A DNA stretch of 64,000 bases from Acidobacteriota bacterium (GTDB taxonomy: Bacteria; Acidobacteriota; UBA4820), in the NCBI GenBank assembly GCA_029559035.1, contig JAKQCT010000078.1:1-64000 (forward strand), written 5' to 3'. The stretch's first letter is position 1. Each line of letters opens with the position of its first letter. The notes beneath the pieces were generated by a model, which was not told the origin of the DNA, searched no databases, and was given only the letters and a program-made list of their open reading frames with translations. The translations under genes were made by a program, and so were the position numbers. This document shows, piece by piece, positions 166 through 37,840 of the stretch.

Positions 166-171
166 GATAAA

Positions 172-524
172 AGGAGGGGACCTGTAAGCCGGATCCTGTT
201 CCCGTTAGGGCGGCAGTCATTCATCTGGAACCGCCGTCACCGGCGGTCTCAAGCAACCTACCCGAAGGCTTCGGCAGGGCGGCCTACAGCGCCTTCCTAT
301 TTGGTCTTGCTCCGCGCGGGGTTTACCTAGCCACCTCCGTTACCGGAGAGTGCGGTGAGCTCTTACCTCGCCGTTTCACCCTTGCCATCCTCCGTTGAGA
401 GGATTCGGCGGTCTGTTCTCTGTTGCACTTTCCGTAGGATCGCTCCTCCCTGCTGTTAGCAGGCGCGCTGCCCAGTGGAGTCCGGACTTTCCTCCGCTCG
501 CGCGGCGACTGCCCGGTCCCCTCC
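172..524 (-). ncRNA. rnpB: RNase P RNA, bacterial type A
   Basis: Catalytic RNA of ribonuclease P, which matures tRNA 5' ends. On the minus strand the 5' region has the conserved GAGGAAAGTCCGGACTCC block (about 477-494) and the ACGGAAAGTGCAACAGA block (about 420-436). The 3' region ends in the conserved GGCTTACAGGTCCCCTCC. The terminal GGAGGGGACC at 515-524 pairs with GGTCCCCTCC at 173-182 to form helix P1, which fixes both ends at a length of about 353 nt. Apparent protein frames across this stretch are fortuitous. A well-spaced promoter lies directly upstream. Confidence 0.95.
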
Positions 525-27686: not shown

Positions 27687-28665
27687 GAAAAGGGGAAGCG
27701 AGGATATAGCCGTCGTCTACCTGCTAAGGTCAAGAATGGACGACGGGGTCTTCATCGAGTGCGTCGAATCGCTCGACCCTCCGGTCCCTCCGGAGGAAAA
27801 ATGGGTGATAACGCTGTCCAGCCAGAAGGGTTGCCCCGCCGGGTGCTCCTTCTGCGACGCTTCGTTCTATTACCGGGGAAATCTGTCTGAAGCAGAGCTT
27901 CTGGACCAGCTCCGCGTGATCGTCGACAGGCATGGCGGAGACGGGCGTCTCGATTCTGAAAAGATCAAGCTTCATCTCGCCAGGATGGGGGAGCCTTCCT
28001 TCAACGACAACGTCCCCGGCTTCCTGGAGGAGGTCAAGAGCCGCTATCCCGGAGTGCGGTTCGTTCCCGCCATCGCGACGATCGGGCCCGCCGGAAGAGA
28101 AGAGTGGTTCGAAAGGCTGAAAAGGCTGAAGGACGAATATTTCGGAGAAGGTTTCTTCCAGCTCCAGTTCTCCCTGAACACGACGGACGAAAGATACAGG
28201 AACAAGATGATGCCCGCGAAGAAGATGACTTTCCGCGAGATAAGCCTGCTAGGGGACCGGTGGGTTGTGAACCGAGACAGGAAGGTCACTCTTAATTTCG
28301 CTCTGCACGCGGACGCTCCGTTCGATGCCGGGAGGATCGCGGGGTCCTTCAGCCCTTCATCTTTCCTGGTCAAGCTGACCCCGATGAACCCCACGCGGGC
28401 GGCCTCGGCCTCCGGGATGGAAAGCGACATCGGGTTCGACGGATCGGTCTCCGAAAGGGTGCTCGGAGAGATCGGGCGCCTCGAGAGGGCGGGATTCGAG
28501 GTGATCGTCTCGATCGGCAGCATGGAAGAGATCCTGACAGGATCCAATTGCGGACAGCTTGCTTTCGCCCGTGGCGGGCATGAGACGCGGGACGGCGGAA
28601 GAAGAGTTATAATCGGCGATGGAGGTGCCAGTGGTGAGAAAAGCTCTGACGATAGCAGGATCTGA
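27664..28665 (+). CDS. RlmN/Cfr-like radical SAM protein
   Basis: A 333-residue radical SAM enzyme that resembles the methylsynthase RlmN. S-S-Q-K-G-C-P-A-G-C-S-F-C is the cluster motif, M-G-E-P-S-F-N matches the RlmN M-G-E-P-L block, and F-S-L-N-T-T-D-E-R-Y-R matches the S-L-(H/N)-A stretch. N-C-G-Q-L-A near the C-terminus matches the catalytic cysteine of RlmN. The usual N-terminal helical RNA-binding domain is short or missing, so the substrate may not be 23S rRNA. It starts 22 bp inside the flavoprotein gene with AAGGAG upstream and runs into thiD, in a tightly overlapping cluster. Confidence 0.8.
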   Translation: MGSWEIVEKRGSEDIAVVYLLRSRMDDGVFIECVESLDPPVPPEEKWVITLSSQKGCPAGCSFCDASFYYRGNLSEAELLDQLRVIVDRHGGDGRLDSEKIKLHLARMGEPSFNDNVPGFLEEVKSRYPGVRFVPAIATIGPAGREEWFERLKRLKDEYFGEGFFQLQFSLNTTDERYRNKMMPAKKMTFREISLLGDRWVVNRDRKVTLNFALHADAPFDAGRIAGSFSPSSFLVKLTPMNPTRAASASGMESDIGFDGSVSERVLGEIGRLERAGFEVIVSIGSMEEILTGSNCGQLAFARGGHETRDGGRRVIIGDGGASGEKSSDDSRI

Positions 28666-29425
28666 CGCTTCGGGAGGCGCCGGGATAGAAGCCGATATCA
28701 AGACGTTCCAAGCGTTCGGAGTTTACGGCGCGGCTGTCATCACCGCGGTGGTGGCGGAAAACACTACCGGCGTCCAGGGAATATTCCCCATACCGCCGGA
28801 ATTCGTCAGCCTCCAGATCCGGAGCGTCCTTGACGACATAGGAGCCGACGCGGTCAAGCTCGGGATGCTTTTCGATGAGGGGATCATCGGAGCGGTGGCT
28901 GGAGAGCTGAGAAAATACAGGCCTTCCAACATCGTGGTCGATCCGGTCATGATGGCCAAGAACGGGGACCCTCTTCTCAAACCGGAGGCGAGGGACGCGC
29001 TCGTGGAACAGATATTCCCCCTGGCGGACGTTGTCACTCCGAACCTGAACGAGGCCGAGGCGCTGTCGGGAGGCCGGATAGAAACGGACACGGACCTCGA
29101 GGAGGCCCTGAGGACGATCAGGTCGAAAGGGCCCGGATCTGTCATCATAAAGGGAGGACACTACGGAGAGGACGCGGTCGATTATTTCTACGACGGGGAG
29201 GCTGTCGTTCCGATCCCAGGAAAGAGGATCAGGACGACAAGCACGCACGGGACCGGATGCACATTCTCATCCGCGCTGGCGGCGCTGATGGCGAGAGGGC
29301 TTTCGGCCAAGGATGCGGCGGCAGGGGCTAAAAAGTTCATTGAGAAAGCCATAGAGACGGCGCCTGCGCTGGGCAAGGGATTCGGGCCATTAAACCACGA
29401 CACGGACACCGGTTCACTGTTCTGA
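28634..29425 (+). CDS. thiD: Hydroxymethylpyrimidine/phosphomethylpyrimidine kinase
   Basis: Ribokinase-fold kinase that phosphorylates HMP and HMP-P for thiamine synthesis; some homologues act on pyridoxal. The 263-residue protein starts A-L-T-I-A-G-S-D-A-S-G-G-A-G-I, the family hallmark. It continues with V-D-P-V-M and T-P-N-L-N-E-A, and ends with the anion-hole motif G-T-G-C-T-F-S-S-A. The start is placed at GTG 28634, 8 nt after GGAGG; ATG 28619 is an alternative. It overlaps the RlmN-like gene by 32 bp. No other thiamine gene is nearby. Confidence 0.9.
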   Translation: MRKALTIAGSDASGGAGIEADIKTFQAFGVYGAAVITAVVAENTTGVQGIFPIPPEFVSLQIRSVLDDIGADAVKLGMLFDEGIIGAVAGELRKYRPSNIVVDPVMMAKNGDPLLKPEARDALVEQIFPLADVVTPNLNEAEALSGGRIETDTDLEEALRTIRSKGPGSVIIKGGHYGEDAVDYFYDGEAVVPIPGKRIRTTSTHGTGCTFSSALAALMARGLSAKDAAAGAKKFIEKAIETAPALGKGFGPLNHDTDTGSLF

Positions 29426-29479: not shown

Positions 29480-30529
29480 TCACCTTGCCAGGGATATTTT
29501 ACCGGAGCGGTCGTTGAACCTGCCGATCTCCCTGCAGAACTGGCCTGCTGATCTCATGGCCGATTCAAGGCCGGGGATCTTGTCCCGCGGAACCGCGAGA
29601 AGCAGCCCTCCGGACGTCTGCGCGTCAGCCGCCATGAGGAGTTCCGGCTCCGACAGATCCCCGCGCATGTCGAGACCGGGGAGCACGAAAGAAAGGTTGG
29701 CTTTGGTGCCTCCGGGGACGACCCCCTTTTCGGCGAGTTCCCTTGTTCCCGGGAAGAACGGAATGGCATCGAAACTGATCTCCGCCCCCGTTCCTGAAGC
29801 GGAACACATCTCCATCAGGTGGCCGAGAAGTCCGTAACCGGTGATGTCAGTCGCTCCCTTCAGGCCCGAAGACACGGCAACGGACGAAGCCGCGCGGTTC
29901 AGAGATGACATGGACGCCACAACTTCTTCCGCGAGGGACGGGGCGATAATATCGTTCTTTATCGCGGTCGCCGCGATGCCCGTACCGATCGGTTTTGTAA
30001 GAAAGATCCCGTCGCCCGGCCGCGATCCGTCCTTCGTCAGGAGGGCGTCCCTGTCCGCGAACCCTATCACGCACAGTCCGGACTTGGGTTCGTTGTCGTC
30101 TATCGTATGCCCGCCGGCTATCAGGCACCCCGCTTCGGTGGCGGCCGCGGCCGCTCCCTTGAGTATCTCGCCAAGCTCCAGGAGCCGGTATTTCCTCACA
30201 GGGAAGGCGGTCACGTTAAGGGCGAGCGAGGGCGTTCCTCCCATGGCGTAAACATCGGACAAAGCGTTGACCGCGGCGATCCTCCCGAAGAGAAAGGGAT
30301 CGTCCACCACCGGAGTAAAAAAATCCGTCGTGAAGATAAGCGCCCTCCTTTCATCGAGGAGATATACGGCAGCGTCTTCCGGTGAAGCGGTGGGGCTAAT
30401 CAGCCTTGGGTCGGAGAATGTCGGCAAGCCGCGGAGAACCTCCGCGAGGTCCTTAGGACCGATCTTGCAGGCTCAGCCGGCTCCGTGGCTGAGTGATGTA
30501 AGCCTTGGGATAGCTGGCTTTTCGCTCAT
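29480..30529 (-). CDS. selD: Selenide, water dikinase (SelD), selenocysteine-containing
   Basis: Makes selenophosphate from selenide and ATP, the donor for selenocysteine and selenouridine. The protein is 349 residues when TGA at 30475-30473 is read as selenocysteine, residue 19. The translation S-H-G-A-G-U-A-C-K-I-G-P aligns with the G-C-G-C-K active site of E. coli SelD, with U at the catalytic cysteine and K22 at the catalytic lysine. Frame and homology continue on both sides: upstream M-S-E-K-P-A-I-P-R-L-T, downstream L-I-S-P-T, and the ATP-binding D-F-F-T-P-V-V-D-D-P. AAAGGAGGTGA, 5 nt before ATG 30529, confirms the start. A start only after the TGA would remove the active site. It lies 4 bp behind the PEGA gene. 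Confidence 0.92.
30448..30460 (-). promoter_or_regulatory. Putative SECIS apical hairpin in selD
   Basis: Twelve nucleotides after the UGA, the mRNA has a perfect GGUCC-UAA-GGACC hairpin inside the coding region. Its position suits a bacterial SECIS element that recruits SelB; the loop is smaller than in E. coli fdhF. Confidence 0.5.
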
Positions 30530-30533
30530 GCGG

Positions 30534-32642
30534 TCACCTCCTTTCTCCGTCGCCGGTCATCTTCAGAAGGTCTTCGACGAGGGGTAGGAGGAGGACCTTC
30601 CCGTCAGAGCCCAGCCGAGTTCCTTCCGGCAAGGCCTTCAGCGCGGCGAGTTCTTCCTTCGCCTCGTCGAGCCTGCCGAGGTGGAAGAGGGCTACCGCCC
30701 TCAGGTATTTTCGAGTGGGGACGAGACACGCGCTTTGCTCGGCCAACTGCAGGCCGTCGAGGATGTCGAGTGCTACCAGCGGTCTTCCGAGACCTATCTC
30801 CACCGAAGCCAGGCTCAGCTTCGCGGCGGCCAGGGGAAACTCTTCCTCCGACGAGATGACCTCCTGGTTGAACCGGAGCCACTGCTTCCTGCTTCCCGCC
30901 CCGTCGCCGTCGCAAAAGAAAACAGGCTGCGCGTCGAGGATCTCTGCGGACCTGACTTCGGGGCCCCTCGAATAAACGACGGCAAGCTTCTTTCCGGAAC
31001 CGGTAAACCATTTGGCGGCTTCCACTGGGGTCTTTTGTGCTTCTCCTTCGATCGAGGTTATCCTGTCTCCCGGAGCGATCCCGTTCCAGCAACCTCCCGC
31101 CCTGAGGACGACGACTCCTTCACCCCCGTCGGAGAAAAAAAGAGGCCCGGAGAGAGCGACGTCTTTCGCGGGGTCGAATTTTTTCACGAGAAAAGACGGT
31201 TCTCTCGCGTCGAGAAGGAGCGCCGTTGTTTCGTCGAAACCGGAAATGCCGGGGACGTAAAGGCGCAGCGAGGCCACCACGTTCTCCCCTTCCGACGAAA
31301 GCTTGGAGACGAGCAGCCCCTCGCAGCGGTATTTTGAACAGAGCTGCTTCACGGCGGATTCCTGCTCAGCGGCGGATACACCCCTGGTGAAAAAAGTGTC
31401 GGAGAGAAAAGGGTTCTCTTCTTTCGAAAGGACCAGATTGAAAGACTCTATGTTCGAAAGAGCCGAACTCATGGATTCCTGGAACAGAGATCCCGCTTCC
31501 CGGGAGACCTCCTGGTCCATAGACGAACCGAGCCACAACAGTGTCGGGCGTAGCTTCGCGTTGAGGCGGTATGACCGCACTCCCCGCAGTTCGAGTTTCT
31601 GGCTGTATTCTCCCTGGCCTTCCTTGAAGACCCGCACCGTGTGGCTTCCCGAGCAGAAGTCCCTGATCTCGACCGGAGTGCTGCCGTACTTGGTTCCGTC
31701 TATTTCGACCACAGCACTGCGGGGATGGGAATCTACCATGAGCGTCAGTGTTTCCATTTGAAGCTCCAGCGGCTTGATGTACCCCGGTTTGTTCTCGACC
31801 GCATCCAGAGAGACTGGAATGGTGAACTTGCGCGTGGCGTGGCACGGCGCGGAGATTTCTATCCTGTGGTCGCCCGGAGGAAGGTAGAGAGCCTCTATCG
31901 CGAAGAACTCGCCAGGGTCGTTCCCGGTACCCGATATGTACTGAGACCATTCTGGCTTTTCAGAAGCAGCGACGTCGGCGCTTCCAGCGAGGCGCCCGTC
32001 GACGAAAAGCTTGGCGCCCTGGGGGCGGATGAAGAAGAAAACCTTCCTCGCGTTGGGTTTAAGGGAAATCGATTCCTCAACCGACTTGCCTGCGGCGACG
32101 AGGATCTCCCTTGTGAAGGAGTTGTGGCCCATGGCGGAAGCTTTCAGGATGTGAAGGCCTTCCAGAAGCCTTATTGTCCTGCTGCCCGCGAAAGCTTTTC
32201 CGTCTATGGTGATCTCGGCGTCATGCGGGGTGACTGTAAGTACGAGGCTTCCCGCCATCGAGTCGCGCACAGTGTTGAAGAACCGGAGGATCTTGCTGGA
32301 CGACGTGATCTCGGGGCTGACGTCGGGGTCGAGCTTTACCAGCCGGCTGAAATCCTCTCTGGCGTTCTGCTCCCTTCCGAGGTGGAAGTACGACACCGCC
32401 CTGATCTCCAGCGCCTTTTTATACACCGCTTCGTCGCTCTCCTGGAGGCTTCCGTTCTTTTCCCAATCGTCGAGAGTAGATATGAGAGTGCTGAGAGTCT
32501 GAACGCTCTTTTCGAACTTGTAACTGCGGAACTGGTCGCCTGCCTTATCCAACTGCTCTGAGAGAGTGCCGACCTCCTCCATTATGACCTGGGCCGGTGC
32601 TGGCAGGGCTGTCAAGAGGAGCAGCGCGAGGATCTTTTTCAT
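30534..32642 (-). CDS. Exported PEGA-domain protein with helical repeat segments
   Basis: A 702-residue protein with a Sec signal peptide ending in L-P-A-P-A-Q. A helical, TPR-like segment follows (about 25-130, with A-V-S-Y-F-H-L-G-R-E-Q-N-A-R-E-D-F). Several PEGA-type beta modules come next: L-V-L-T-V-T-P-H-D-A-E-I-T-I-D-G-K, V-F-F-F-I-R-P-Q-G-A-K-L-F-V-D-G and L-M-V-D-S-H-P-R-S-A-V-V-E-I-D-G-T-K-Y-G. The C-terminal half has a possible PDZ-like stretch (G-I-A-P-G-D-R-I-T-S-I-E-G) and another TPR-like end. It is probably periplasmic and linked to the cell envelope. It overlaps the preceding gene by ATGA. Confidence 0.75.
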   Translation of the reverse strand: MKKILALLLLTALPAPAQVIMEEVGTLSEQLDKAGDQFRSYKFEKSVQTLSTLISTLDDWEKNGSLQESDEAVYKKALEIRAVSYFHLGREQNAREDFSRLVKLDPDVSPEITSSSKILRFFNTVRDSMAGSLVLTVTPHDAEITIDGKAFAGSRTIRLLEGLHILKASAMGHNSFTREILVAAGKSVEESISLKPNARKVFFFIRPQGAKLFVDGRLAGSADVAASEKPEWSQYISGTGNDPGEFFAIEALYLPPGDHRIEISAPCHATRKFTIPVSLDAVENKPGYIKPLELQMETLTLMVDSHPRSAVVEIDGTKYGSTPVEIRDFCSGSHTVRVFKEGQGEYSQKLELRGVRSYRLNAKLRPTLLWLGSSMDQEVSREAGSLFQESMSSALSNIESFNLVLSKEENPFLSDTFFTRGVSAAEQESAVKQLCSKYRCEGLLVSKLSSEGENVVASLRLYVPGISGFDETTALLLDAREPSFLVKKFDPAKDVALSGPLFFSDGGEGVVVLRAGGCWNGIAPGDRITSIEGEAQKTPVEAAKWFTGSGKKLAVVYSRGPEVRSAEILDAQPVFFCDGDGAGSRKQWLRFNQEVISSEEEFPLAAAKLSLASVEIGLGRPLVALDILDGLQLAEQSACLVPTRKYLRAVALFHLGRLDEAKEELAALKALPEGTRLGSDGKVLLLPLVEDLLKMTGDGERR

Positions 32643-33742
32643 AGCGACACCTTCATCACGGAGCTTTTCTTCCTGTCCAGGACCGTCAGCGAACCTCCGC
32701 CGTCCCACGAGAACAGGTCGGCCTGAAAAGCCTTGTCGCTGCTGGAACCGAGGAATCGCTTGGAGAAATTGAAAAAGGATAGTTCTTTCGAGCCTTTTTC
32801 AAGGATGATGATGTTGCCGGCGAAATCGGGCCGGAAGTCCGACACGCGGCCTACAGGGGCGCCGGAGGCTGCGGGATCCAGGACGAACAGGGGGTCGAAC
32901 CCCGAACTGTATATGGAGATGTCGTCCCCGGAATCGGAGAGTATGAAAACCCTCCCAAGCTCGTCGGTCCTTATCTTCGACGGTTTCCTGATGAGAATCT
33001 GTCTTTCCTCGATGATCTTGCCCCCGTCGTCCAGAAGGAACACTTTCCCGGCGGAATCCAGGATGTAAAGGCCCCCGCCCGGGGCCCGTGCAAAACTCGC
33101 CGCGTCGTTGATCCTCAGAGGCAGCTGGGTCGTCCCCGAAACAGATACGATGGAACTGGATGTGAGGACCAGCGGCTCCCCCTTCCCGTCAAGGATCTCC
33201 TTTCCTCCGGCGATCGTCCGGAAAGCCTGGGGGGAACCGTCAAGGGGATAGGTGTAAAAGGCTTCCGGGGTGAGAACGAACACGGAGCCGCCAGCGGCGG
33301 CCATGGACACTGCCTTTCTTGCAACTTCCTTTGGGACACGGAAAACCTGCGTTTCCGGGAGGAAACGGGCAGGTTCTCTGGCGGGCCCTTCCCTCTTCAG
33401 AAGAAGTTCCGACCGCATCCTGTCCCTTCCGGAGGCGTTCTTCTGTCCCAGCACGAAAGCCGAGGCGTCCAGCGGCTTTCCCAGGCCGATCAGCGTCAGG
33501 AAGAGAAGCTCCCTCCATTCCTCATCGCCGGCCATGCCGGATTCGGAGAGGAGAAGGTGTTTGTACGCTGCTCCTGGGTCGCCGCCGAAAAGTGATCTCC
33601 GGGCAGTGGCCAGAAGCCGGGCGTCGTCCGGCTTTTCTCCGGGAGACGGAGGAAATGTTAGCTGGGCGGCCAGTCCGAGAGAAGCCATAAGAACGAGCAG
33701 AAAGCTAAATGTCCGAAACTTTTTTCCTGGCGAAATCGACAA
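32639..33742 (-). CDS. Exported propeller-like protein, unknown function
   Basis: A protein of about 367 residues with an N-terminal signal or anchor (F-L-L-V-L-M-A-S-L-G-L-A-A). The first 130 residues are helical and TPR-like (G-G-D-P-G-A-A-Y-K-H-L-L-L). The rest shows repeated beta-strand blocks of NHL/propeller type, such as G-G-G-L-Y-I-L-D-S-A-G-K-V-F-L-L-D and L-G-R-V-F-I-L-S-D-S-G-D-D-I-S-I-Y. No ATG lies before the signal peptide. TTG at 33742 is chosen because AAGGAG lies upstream; GTG 33763 and TTG 33778 are alternatives. It overlaps the kinase gene 3' end, and its own end overlaps the PEGA gene by ATGA. Confidence 0.65.
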   Translation of the reverse strand: MSISPGKKFRTFSFLLVLMASLGLAAQLTFPPSPGEKPDDARLLATARRSLFGGDPGAAYKHLLLSESGMAGDEEWRELLFLTLIGLGKPLDASAFVLGQKNASGRDRMRSELLLKREGPAREPARFLPETQVFRVPKEVARKAVSMAAAGGSVFVLTPEAFYTYPLDGSPQAFRTIAGGKEILDGKGEPLVLTSSSIVSVSGTTQLPLRINDAASFARAPGGGLYILDSAGKVFLLDDGGKIIEERQILIRKPSKIRTDELGRVFILSDSGDDISIYSSGFDPLFVLDPAASGAPVGRVSDFRPDFAGNIIILEKGSKELSFFNFSKRFLGSSSDKAFQADLFSWDGGGSLTVLDRKKSSVMKVSL

Positions 33743-35594
33743 CTTTTTTCTGTTCTCCTTCACGAACCTTCCAGTCAAAACGGACTCTCCTTCCTTTCGA
33801 GCTTGTGACCACGACTTCGTGTTTTCCCACGGCCAGTTTTTTTTCTCCGGTCAGGGGAAGGTCGCCGAACGGCCTCCCGTCGATTGTCACGGTGCCGTCC
33901 TCCTCGGGCCTTCCGACGAGGAATACGCTCCCCGTCCTGAAAGGTTCCGCCGAAAGTTCGGTGGTTTCTCCGGGCGTTATGTTCACCGAAACCTCTCTCT
34001 TCCCGAGGACATGTTCGTTAACTATACTTATCGTATGCCGTCCTTCCGGAAGAGTCGCAAGATCGCCCGGCCTTCCTATGAGCTTTCCCTCCTCGAAGAA
34101 CTTGAGTGAGGAGTCGGGGGAATGCAGCTTGATCTTCCCTTCCAGGGCTTTCTGGGACATGGGGGCCTGGAGGCTTTCGACGGAGTAAGGATCGATCTCC
34201 CTGGAAAGATCCGAGAACCCTTCCATCTTCAGCATTACGACGAATGCCGAACAGTCGGCCCTCGGAAGAAGGGCGGGGGTCAGGAATCCCGTCTCCTCTC
34301 CGTCCACGAAGACCATGGCGCCCCGGGGCTCGGAATCGATCCTGAACTGGAAAGGACCCGGCGCGAGCTTGAGGACGACCGGCTCGGGAGTTCGGGAAGA
34401 TATTTCGGTCTCCCCGCTCAGGCACCCCTTCCTCGCCACCAATTTGTGTTTTCTCCTGTCGTTCTCGGAAAGTATGGGGATCTGGACCCGTTTCCCGTCG
34501 AGGAACAGGGCGGCCCCCGGCGGTTCGGTCCTGACTTCCAGGGGCTTCGGAAGGACCTCCTCGCCGCGAGGTTTGCCGAGGGCGAACGGGGCGTTGTCGG
34601 CAGACAGGAAATACTGTATCCCGAAAAGAAGCATCAGCGTGAATATCCCTCCCGAGGCGCCGGCTATGGCGACAACCTTCCAGTCCACGGAATATTTTTC
34701 CCGCTTCTCGACGGGTTTCGGCGGAGGTGGGAGCAGGTCCTGCGGCCGCTTCAGGCGCACCGCCGTCCTGAAAGCTTCCTGGTCCATTACGGCTCTCTGA
34801 AACTCCGCGGCGGTCTGGAACCTATCCTCGGGTTTTTTCGCGAGAGCCTTCATGATTATCGCGAAAAGGCGTGGCGGGATCGACGGCGTGGGTTCCACGG
34901 GAAAGGGAGGGTCTTCGAAGAGGATCTTCTTGAGTATGGTCGATATCGTATCTCCTTCAAAGGGCCTTATCCCCGCTGCAAGCTCATATAACACGACTCC
35001 CAGGGAGAACAGGTCCGACCTCCCGTCCGCCGGCTTTCCGTCCACCTGTTCGGGGGACATGTAGTGAGGGGTCCCCACCAGGAAGCCGTCCCGGGAAAGC
35101 GGCGCGTCGAGGCTTCTGGCAAGACCGAAGTCGGTGATCTTCGCCGTTCCGTCTTCCAGGATCATTATGTTGGAGGGCTTGATGTCGCGGTGCACTACGC
35201 CCTGCTTGTGGGCGTAATCGAGGGCTGACAGAGCCTGGGAAATTATGTCCAGCAGCTTCTCGGTGGGGAGCTTGCTGCCGGGAGAACAGAACTTGTCCAG
35301 GGTGGTGCCCTCGAGGTATTCCATCGCGATGTACGTCGAACCTTCGTCCTCGAAAACGTCGAACACCGTAACGATGTTGGGATGAAGAAGCTTCCCCGCG
35401 GCTTTTGCTTCCGAGATTATCCTCGATATGTGCGACTGGTGTTCTTCCGGGCTCAACCCCGCGTCGTCGCAGATGGTCTTGAGCGCGACATGCCTGTCTA
35501 TCCTGGGATCCCTGGCGAGGTATACCCTTCCCATGGCGCCCTTTCCGATCAGCCTGATTATTCTGTACCTGCCGGCGGTCTCCGGGATGGCCAT
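33705..35594 (-). CDS. Membrane Ser/Thr protein kinase with extracytoplasmic PEGA domains
   Basis: A 629-residue Hanks-type kinase. The kinase domain occupies about residues 10-265: G17-K-G-A-M-G, catalytic lysine K39, H135-R-D and D155-F-G are all present, and M-S-P-E-Q replaces A-P-E. The kinase is therefore predicted active. A single transmembrane helix (about 310-330) follows. Beyond it lie PEGA-like beta modules (V-R-T-E-P-P-G-A-A-L-F-L-D-G-K, I-D-S-E-P-R-G-A-M-V-F-V-D-G, S-V-F-L-V-G-R-P) on the outer side. The ATG overlaps the TGA of the diguanylate cyclase gene, so the two are coupled. Confidence 0.92.
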   Translation of the reverse strand: MAIPETAGRYRIIRLIGKGAMGRVYLARDPRIDRHVALKTICDDAGLSPEEHQSHISRIISEAKAAGKLLHPNIVTVFDVFEDEGSTYIAMEYLEGTTLDKFCSPGSKLPTEKLLDIISQALSALDYAHKQGVVHRDIKPSNIMILEDGTAKITDFGLARSLDAPLSRDGFLVGTPHYMSPEQVDGKPADGRSDLFSLGVVLYELAAGIRPFEGDTISTILKKILFEDPPFPVEPTPSIPPRLFAIIMKALAKKPEDRFQTAAEFQRAVMDQEAFRTAVRLKRPQDLLPPPPKPVEKREKYSVDWKVVAIAGASGGIFTLMLLFGIQYFLSADNAPFALGKPRGEEVLPKPLEVRTEPPGAALFLDGKRVQIPILSENDRRKHKLVARKGCLSGETEISSRTPEPVVLKLAPGPFQFRIDSEPRGAMVFVDGEETGFLTPALLPRADCSAFVVMLKMEGFSDLSREIDPYSVESLQAPMSQKALEGKIKLHSPDSSLKFFEEGKLIGRPGDLATLPEGRHTISIVNEHVLGKREVSVNITPGETTELSAEPFRTGSVFLVGRPEEDGTVTIDGRPFGDLPLTGEKKLAVGKHEVVVTSSKGRRVRFDWKVREGEQKKVVDFARKKVSDI

Positions 35595-37840
35595 CACGGT
35601 CCTTCCGCGATGCGGTTCTTGCCCGCCTGCTTGGCACGGTAAAGCGCGAGGTCGGCGATGTTCAGGAGTTCCTTGTGGTTCCTCGAGTGCTTGGGGAATG
35701 TCGCGATGCCGATCGATACGGTGATCTTCACCGGCTGCGTGATGCTTTCGTCGTACACCGGCTTCTTCTCGACAAGGGACCTTATTCTTTCCGCCACCAT
35801 CCTGGCCTGATGCGAGTCGAGCCCGTTCAGGAGGACCGCGAATTCCTCACCCCCGTACCTTGCCGCCACGTCGTCCTTCCTGGTCACCTCCAGCAGGGTT
35901 TGCCCGATGGACCTCAGAACCGCGTCTCCCGCGAGGTGGCCGAAAGTGTCGTTCGTCTCCTTGAAATTGTCCAGGTCCATCATGAGGATCGAGAATGTCT
36001 GGTTGGAAACGGAAGCCTGCCTGAGCACCCTGGAGAGCGATTCCTGGAAATGCCTGTGGTTGTACAGATTGGTGAGACCGTCCATCACGGCGTCGTGCCT
36101 GGCGACCGCGTGGATCGCAGCGCTTTCGAAGGCGTGGACCGCCTGGTTGGCGAGGATCTCGAGAGCGTTCAGCGTTTCCAGAGAAGGTATCTTTCCGTCC
36201 CGCGGCTCATCAACGGAGATGACGCCGAGTAGGTTGTTGTTGCTTGTCAGGAGCGGGACGAAGAGGGCGTCATCGGGAGCCCAGTCGTCGGGAGACGCGC
36301 CGGAAGGATCATCCATTTTCGGCATGATGGTCGTTGTCGTAGGAGTGACGTTCCTCACCAGATAGCAGTTTCCGATCCGAAACTCCTCCCTGAAGTGCCG
36401 GAGGATGTTCTGTTCGGGAGGCTTCTTTTCCGAGATCTCATTCCACCTGTCGTCCAGGCCCGCCTGGGCGATCCTTTCGAAGCATTTCTCGTCCTGCTTG
36501 TAAAGGCTGATGAGCACCGTTCTGAACCCGAGGCTCTGGGAGATACCGTCGGCGACCTCTTCCAGGATCTCCTGGGAGCTCAGGTGAATCTTGAGCAGGT
36601 TCGATATCTTGAGTATCTCCGAAAGGTAATGCGTCTGTTTCAGAAGGGTCTGGTTGGTGGTCATGAGCTGGCCCTTCAATATCTTGTCCTGGATGTGCCG
36701 CGCGACCTGGGAAAGCGCCGACTGGCAGAACTGCACTTCCGCGGAATCGAAAGGCTGGTCGGACACCCTCTCGAGCACGAGAATCCCGAACGAGATCTCA
36801 TCGGTCGACAGGGGCATTATGATCTGGGATTTCGAGCGGGCGTCGAGCATTGGAGCGAGAGTTTCGCCGGACCTGCATACGGGCTCCTTGAGAGGAGGGT
36901 TGGCCTGAAGGATCTCCTCGAGCGTTCCTATGACGCCGTGAGGGTCCGGAGGGAATTCCCCGGTGGAAAAGATTATCGGCTCCCTTTCCATCTCCAAAGA
37001 CGCAAGATACAGGATATCCCTGTCCCATTTGACGAAATCCTTGAGACCGGTCAGGAAGTTCTTGAGAAAGTTCCGGTCCTCGAGCGATCCGGCCTCGACG
37101 GTCATTATCTGCTGCAGGAACTCCTGCTTCTGCGTGGATCTTATGAGGGAACTGTTCTTCTCGACAAGCTTGAAGTTGACCCTCAGGCTCCAGATCGTCG
37201 ATATGAGAGGAAAGAAGCTCAGTATCAGGAACGGAATGTGGTTTTCGGATATCGCGAGGAGAAAGATCGCAAGGAACGGCGAGGAAATGAACAGGAATAG
37301 AAGGTACTTGAACAGGTAGCTCATCCACTGCCTGATGGAAAAATCGGTTCCGGTGACGATCCTGTCCAAAAGAAGGATGAGGAATCCGAGGAGGGCGAAA
37401 ACGAAAAGCGATATAAGCAGGACCAGGCAGCTCTTGGTCAGGGAGGATCCGGCGGTAAAGGCTCCTGTGGCCTGGAAGAGAAGGGTCGTGACAGCAGTGT
37501 TTACGGAAATCGCCAGGAAAGAGAGCCAGTGCTTCGCCTCCAATCCCCTGAACCCGAACCTGAAAGCTCTTTCAAGGAGGTATCCGAAGCCGTTCAGCAG
37601 GCCCGCGAGAAAGGGGTTCCCGATGAAGAGGACGGCCGGGAAGGCGACTATGTGATCGCTGCTGACATGTCCGAGGCCGGGAAGGGAAACGTCGAAATAG
37701 GTCGCCAGGAAGTAGGCGAAAACAAGCAGGGGGATCAGGTACGCCTTTTCGCAGTTTAGGCCGAGCAAGAAGAAAAGCGATGCCAAGGCAGCCGCCAGGA
37801 GGATCATGATGACAATGCGGCCGGGCGGTATTTTCCTCAA
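35594..37840 (-). CDS. Membrane-bound GAF-domain diguanylate cyclase
   Basis: A 748-residue signalling protein. The first 250 residues contain about seven or eight membrane helices. Two GAF-like sensor regions follow (roughly 280-430 and 450-580), then a GGDEF domain with G-G-E-E-F at 663-667. The inhibitory-site motif R-K-D-D stands five residues before it, so c-di-GMP synthesis with product inhibition is expected. The start is placed at TTG 37840 because AAAGGAGG lies 8 nt upstream; earlier in-frame ATGs lack a ribosome site. The stop overlaps the kinase start. A -10-like TATGAT occurs upstream, without a convincing -35. Confidence 0.9.
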   Translation of the reverse strand: MRKIPPGRIVIMILLAAALASLFFLLGLNCEKAYLIPLLVFAYFLATYFDVSLPGLGHVSSDHIVAFPAVLFIGNPFLAGLLNGFGYLLERAFRFGFRGLEAKHWLSFLAISVNTAVTTLLFQATGAFTAGSSLTKSCLVLLISLFVFALLGFLILLLDRIVTGTDFSIRQWMSYLFKYLLFLFISSPFLAIFLLAISENHIPFLILSFFPLISTIWSLRVNFKLVEKNSSLIRSTQKQEFLQQIMTVEAGSLEDRNFLKNFLTGLKDFVKWDRDILYLASLEMEREPIIFSTGEFPPDPHGVIGTLEEILQANPPLKEPVCRSGETLAPMLDARSKSQIIMPLSTDEISFGILVLERVSDQPFDSAEVQFCQSALSQVARHIQDKILKGQLMTTNQTLLKQTHYLSEILKISNLLKIHLSSQEILEEVADGISQSLGFRTVLISLYKQDEKCFERIAQAGLDDRWNEISEKKPPEQNILRHFREEFRIGNCYLVRNVTPTTTTIMPKMDDPSGASPDDWAPDDALFVPLLTSNNNLLGVISVDEPRDGKIPSLETLNALEILANQAVHAFESAAIHAVARHDAVMDGLTNLYNHRHFQESLSRVLRQASVSNQTFSILMMDLDNFKETNDTFGHLAGDAVLRSIGQTLLEVTRKDDVAARYGGEEFAVLLNGLDSHQARMVAERIRSLVEKKPVYDESITQPVKITVSIGIATFPKHSRNHKELLNIADLALYRAKQAGKNRIAEGP

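Follow-up and report, generated by a model that had tools for sequence, protein, structure and literature searches.

The selenophosphate synthetase SelD encoded in this DNA is almost certainly itself a selenoprotein, in which UGA codon 19 specifies selenocysteine (Sec) and the SECIS is most likely the stem-loop at positions 30447 to 30429. That SelD is a selenoprotein was the central claim of a first-pass annotation of the window (the whole stretch of 64,000 nucleotides that was analyzed), and the claim is supported by the presence of selA, selB, and tRNA-Sec in the source genome and by the conservation of the TGA codon in relatives. The gene, the position of its UGA, the conservation of this codon, the presence of selA, selB, and selC, and a SECIS candidate with covariation can all be read from the DNA of the source genome and its relatives. 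The features are as follows (all on the reverse strand).

29480..30529 (-): coding sequence of selD, codon 19 specifying Sec; matches TIGR00476, with homology both before and after the TGA
30527..30544 (-): ribosome-binding site AAAGGAGG together with the ATG start codon (30529-30527), overlapping the end of the upstream open reading frame (ORF; stop at 30536-30534)
30473..30475 (-): TGA (UGA) codon predicted to encode selenocysteine, at the aligned position of the essential Cys (C17 of Escherichia coli SelD)
30448..30460 (-): hairpin GGUCC-UAA-GGACC, 12 nt after the UGA, taken for the SECIS in the first-pass annotation; not a conserved SECIS
30429..30447 (-): most likely SECIS, UCGCGGAG-GUU-CUCCGCGG, based on the bacterial SECIS rules, conserved pairing, and compensatory changes

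The selD reading frame and its UGA codon

The selD frame begins with the ATG at 30529 and runs through 18 sense codons to the TGA (30475-30473), from which it continues for 330 more codons to the stop codon at 29482-29480, giving a product of 349 residues when the TGA is read as U. A spacer of 7 nt separates the ribosome-binding site AAAGGAGG from the ATG. The 349-residue product matches the TIGR00476 selD model with 355.6 bits (cut-off, 125) over profile positions 1 to 309 of 311, a full-length match above the cut-off that makes it a member of the SelD family. Both the proposed start (a consensus ribosome site and ATG 30529, followed by 18 codons to the TGA) and the proposed continuation of the frame past the TGA through the whole of SelD were thus confirmed.

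In the alignment through the TGA with the best solved relative (SLSHGAG-U-ACKIGPK here versus QYSHGAG-C-GCKISPK in 3u0o), U19 falls on the Cys of "SHGAGCGCKI," and GAG-U-ACK aligns with GAGCGCK, so that the catalytic Cys/Sec and the Lys of the N-terminal loop of SelD are both present and the TGA lies exactly at the active-site cysteine, as had been noticed from the letters of the gene (G-A-G-U-A-C-K). A search of 60 relatives with this protein as the query found intact SelD orthologues in the same family and order (55 to 59% protein identity; motif SHG(A/S)G-U-ACK), all eight of which have a single TGA, located as in the selD of the window. The SelDs of other families in the phylum mostly have a single internal TGA as well, and a minority have none. 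The gene thus contains an in-frame UGA at the Cys of its homologues that is conserved in relatives, as is required of a selenoprotein gene.

Two readings that dispense with selenocysteine were weighed against these data. The TGA is one base change away from TGC or TGT and might therefore reflect an error of sequencing or assembly in a Cys codon, or the mutation of such a codon in a pseudogene; a sequencing error of this kind had been named in the first-pass annotation as one of two findings that would refute its claim. The conservation of the TGA in 8/8 intact family and order orthologues excludes a sequencing error, and together with its presence in most SelDs of the phylum, and in a genome with the full Sec machinery and another UGA selenoprotein (see below), it leaves the error or pseudogene reading with a negligible probability. 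The second reading holds that there is no readthrough and that a shorter SelD begins at the TTG at 30427, which is the first mechanical ORF start 3′ of the TGA and yields an ORF of 315 amino acids. This start removes 34 residues of SelD including the active-site loop, which bears out the prediction that automated annotation would truncate the gene by about that number. As the start used by the cell it is extremely improbable, because a protein starting there would be missing the active-site loop at the N terminus (SHGAG-U-ACK), the part of the frame that precedes the TGA shares homology with known SelDs and has a good ribosome-binding site at its start, and the UGA is kept among relatives.

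Directly upstream of selD, a gene on the same strand (30534-32687) encodes a protein with TPR and PEGA domains, beyond which lies a gene resembling those of Ser/Thr kinases (33705-35597). On the forward strand, a ThiD-like gene for a phosphomethylpyrimidine kinase (28619-29425) is convergent with selD and ends ∼55 bp from the selD stop. The window also contains a bacterial class A RNase P RNA (169-524, reverse strand; 315 bits).

Selenocysteine machinery and further selenoprotein candidates in the genome

A selenocysteine-containing SelD implies that selA, selB, and selC are present elsewhere, as the first-pass annotation had pointed out, and all of them were found in the same draft genome (2.86 Mb in 99 contigs; 95% complete). 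The tRNA-Sec gene scored 72.7 bits (gathering score, 47 bits) and was also called by ARAGORN as tRNA-SeC with anticodon TCA; selB scored 330.2 bits with neighbours in frame (cut-off, 242) and encodes a GTPase domain and a C-terminal SelB-wing_3 domain; and selA scored 480.1 bits. The genome thus holds the selA, selB, and tRNA-Sec genes that a selenoprotein gene requires. Among the 12 nearest relatives, seven have both SelD and SelB, and three (G001, G003, and G011) have neither over the cut-off; G001 and G003 belong to the same family as the source genome, and their joint loss of the two speaks for the selenoprotein reading; G011 is 64% complete. Of the remaining two, the draft genome G008 has SelB with SelD not found, which counts against that reading, and in G010, which has SelD, SelB does not exceed the cut-off and is represented only by a short fragment at the end of a contig.

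A second UGA selenoprotein gene in the genome encodes the formate dehydrogenase alpha subunit FdhA, with one TGA in the motif CARL-U-HSST and a GUCGCC-GGUCU-GGCGAC hairpin 12 nt downstream of it. An FdhA paralogue reads CARL-C-HAST, its Cys aligning with the TGA of FdhA; the Sec-type gene (L118; G000:C47:20299-22305) and the Cys-type paralogue (L117; G000:C47:40335-42326) lie 18 kb apart on one contig. With selD and fdhA, at least two genes of this genome would use UGA for Sec. Searches of the genome for SelU/YbbB (selenouridine use; one control genome over the cut-off) and for the large subunit of NiFe(Se) hydrogenase (controls matched) gave no match, and a search for GrdB/PrdB gave none in the genome or in the control. 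A homologue of FlpD is present and has no TGA. In two relatives, frames that resemble EF-Tu and contain one "TGA" were rejected as candidates; the one copy checked shows an ordinary EF-Tu stop followed by the next gene. A pair of SelDs occurs in some relatives within the phylum (G027 and G024; L096, L098, and further matches): one has a TGA, and the other, which is TGA-less, lies in a much longer frame (∼750 amino acids) and is perhaps the known Ndh-SelD fusion.

Candidate SECIS hairpins downstream of the UGA

The window contains no SECIS match in Rfam at the gathering threshold, and the published constraints for bacterial SECIS elements were therefore implemented directly: an apical loop of 3 to 9 nt with a G in the first two positions, a stem of 4 to 16 bp, a distance of 16 to 37 nt from the UGA to the loop, and a minimum free energy (MFE) of −7.5 kcal/mol or lower (PMC13188914). 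The hairpin at 30447-30429, which lies just past the range covered by the first-pass entry (30529-30448), falls within all of these limits, with a stem of 8 bp that ends in a U-G pair, a GUU loop with an apical G located 33 nt after the UGA, and a folding energy of −11.6 kcal/mol. It forms in 9/9 sequences of the family and order; over the eight distinct sequences, 98.4% of cells are paired, and two pairs carry compensatory changes, with both partners replaced (G-C to C-G or U-A, and C-G to U-A). A hairpin fitting the SECIS model was found in 54 of the 77 Sec-type SelDs collected versus 0 of the 14 Cys-type SelDs, counts that are uncorrected for G+C content or phylogeny. The stability of the hairpin is not exceptional by itself, being matched under the model by 8% of synonymous-codon shuffles, and the case for it rests on comparison rather than on stability. 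On these grounds, the stem-loop at 30447-30429 is most likely the SECIS of selD.

The first-pass annotation had instead assigned this role to the perfect hairpin 12 nt downstream of the UGA (30460-30448). Such a hairpin is indeed present and is perfect in the source sequence, and the MFE fold places both hairpins side by side inside a longer stem, which would also allow the two to act as one composite element. However, its 3-nt loop (UAA) contains no G and its energy is −5.8 kcal/mol, so that it misses the published criteria for both loop and energy, and its outer pair is broken in five and its inner pair in two of the eight distinct family and order sequences. Its unvarying pairs sit in the codons for G/S-P-x-D-L, which are also conserved at the protein level. 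The mere presence of the hairpin means little, since one with at least five Watson-Crick pairs arises in 55% of synonymous-codon shuffles of the same stretch. The hairpin at 30460-30448 was rejected as the SECIS because of the loop-G rule and the loss of pairs in relatives, and we consider it unlikely that it serves as the SECIS, whether alone or in a composite element. The SECIS preferred here thus remains the stem-loop at 30447-30429.

Proposed mechanism and relation to known Sec-containing SelDs

UGA codon 19 would be translated as selenocysteine by means of Sec-tRNA-Sec, for whose synthesis SelA would use the selenophosphate supplied by SelD. SelB would deliver the Sec-tRNA-Sec by binding the SECIS hairpin of the transcript, most likely 30447-30429, and the Sec in the flexible N-terminal loop (GAG-U-ACK) would act in place of the catalytic Cys found in other SelDs. 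The decoding of the UGA, the binding of SelB, and the enzymatic activity of SelD are what this gene content would lead one to expect, and ATP-dependent selenophosphate formation by SelD and selenium in the protein are predicted from it. Because the translation of SelD would need SelD's own product, the UGA and the two adjacent hairpins could also be imagined as a selenium-sensing switch that sets the level of SelD beyond plain Sec insertion, an idea that we regard as very unlikely.

Sec-containing SelDs are known in some bacteria, as the first-pass annotation had stated, and are both common and long known. They rank among the top two bacterial selenoprotein families in abundance (PMC1794560) and second among prokaryotic ones in how widely they are distributed (PMC13188914). 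As here, the Sec-containing SelDs of, for example, Deltaproteobacteria and Clostridia have the UGA at the Cys position of the N-terminal loop with a SECIS hairpin downstream (PMC1794560, PMC13188914), selA, selB, and selC in the genome, and FdhA as a further selenoprotein alongside SelD. Two positions beyond Sec, the SelD described here has Cys (U-A-C-K), in contrast to the Ala or Ser of many Sec-containing SelDs, which is not a difference of substance. Cys-type SelDs (E. coli; 3u0o) share the fold family and length of this SelD and align over most of its length, but have the catalytic Cys where it has Sec, and lack the model-fitting SECIS-like hairpin in all 14 cases compared. With the bacterial SECIS of formate dehydrogenase, the selD candidate shares a small apical loop starting with G or GGU, a G+C-rich stem, and a location 16 to 37 nt from the UGA; the distance is 33 nt in selD versus 18 nt in fdhA of the same genome. 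Judged by its sequence, selD agrees with Sec-containing SelDs in every criterion and departs from them in none.

As this arrangement is already known, the selD result adds a record, not a principle. It provides a clean example of stop-codon recoding in which ordinary gene calling truncates the protein at its active site, and it places this lineage among the Sec-decoding bacteria.
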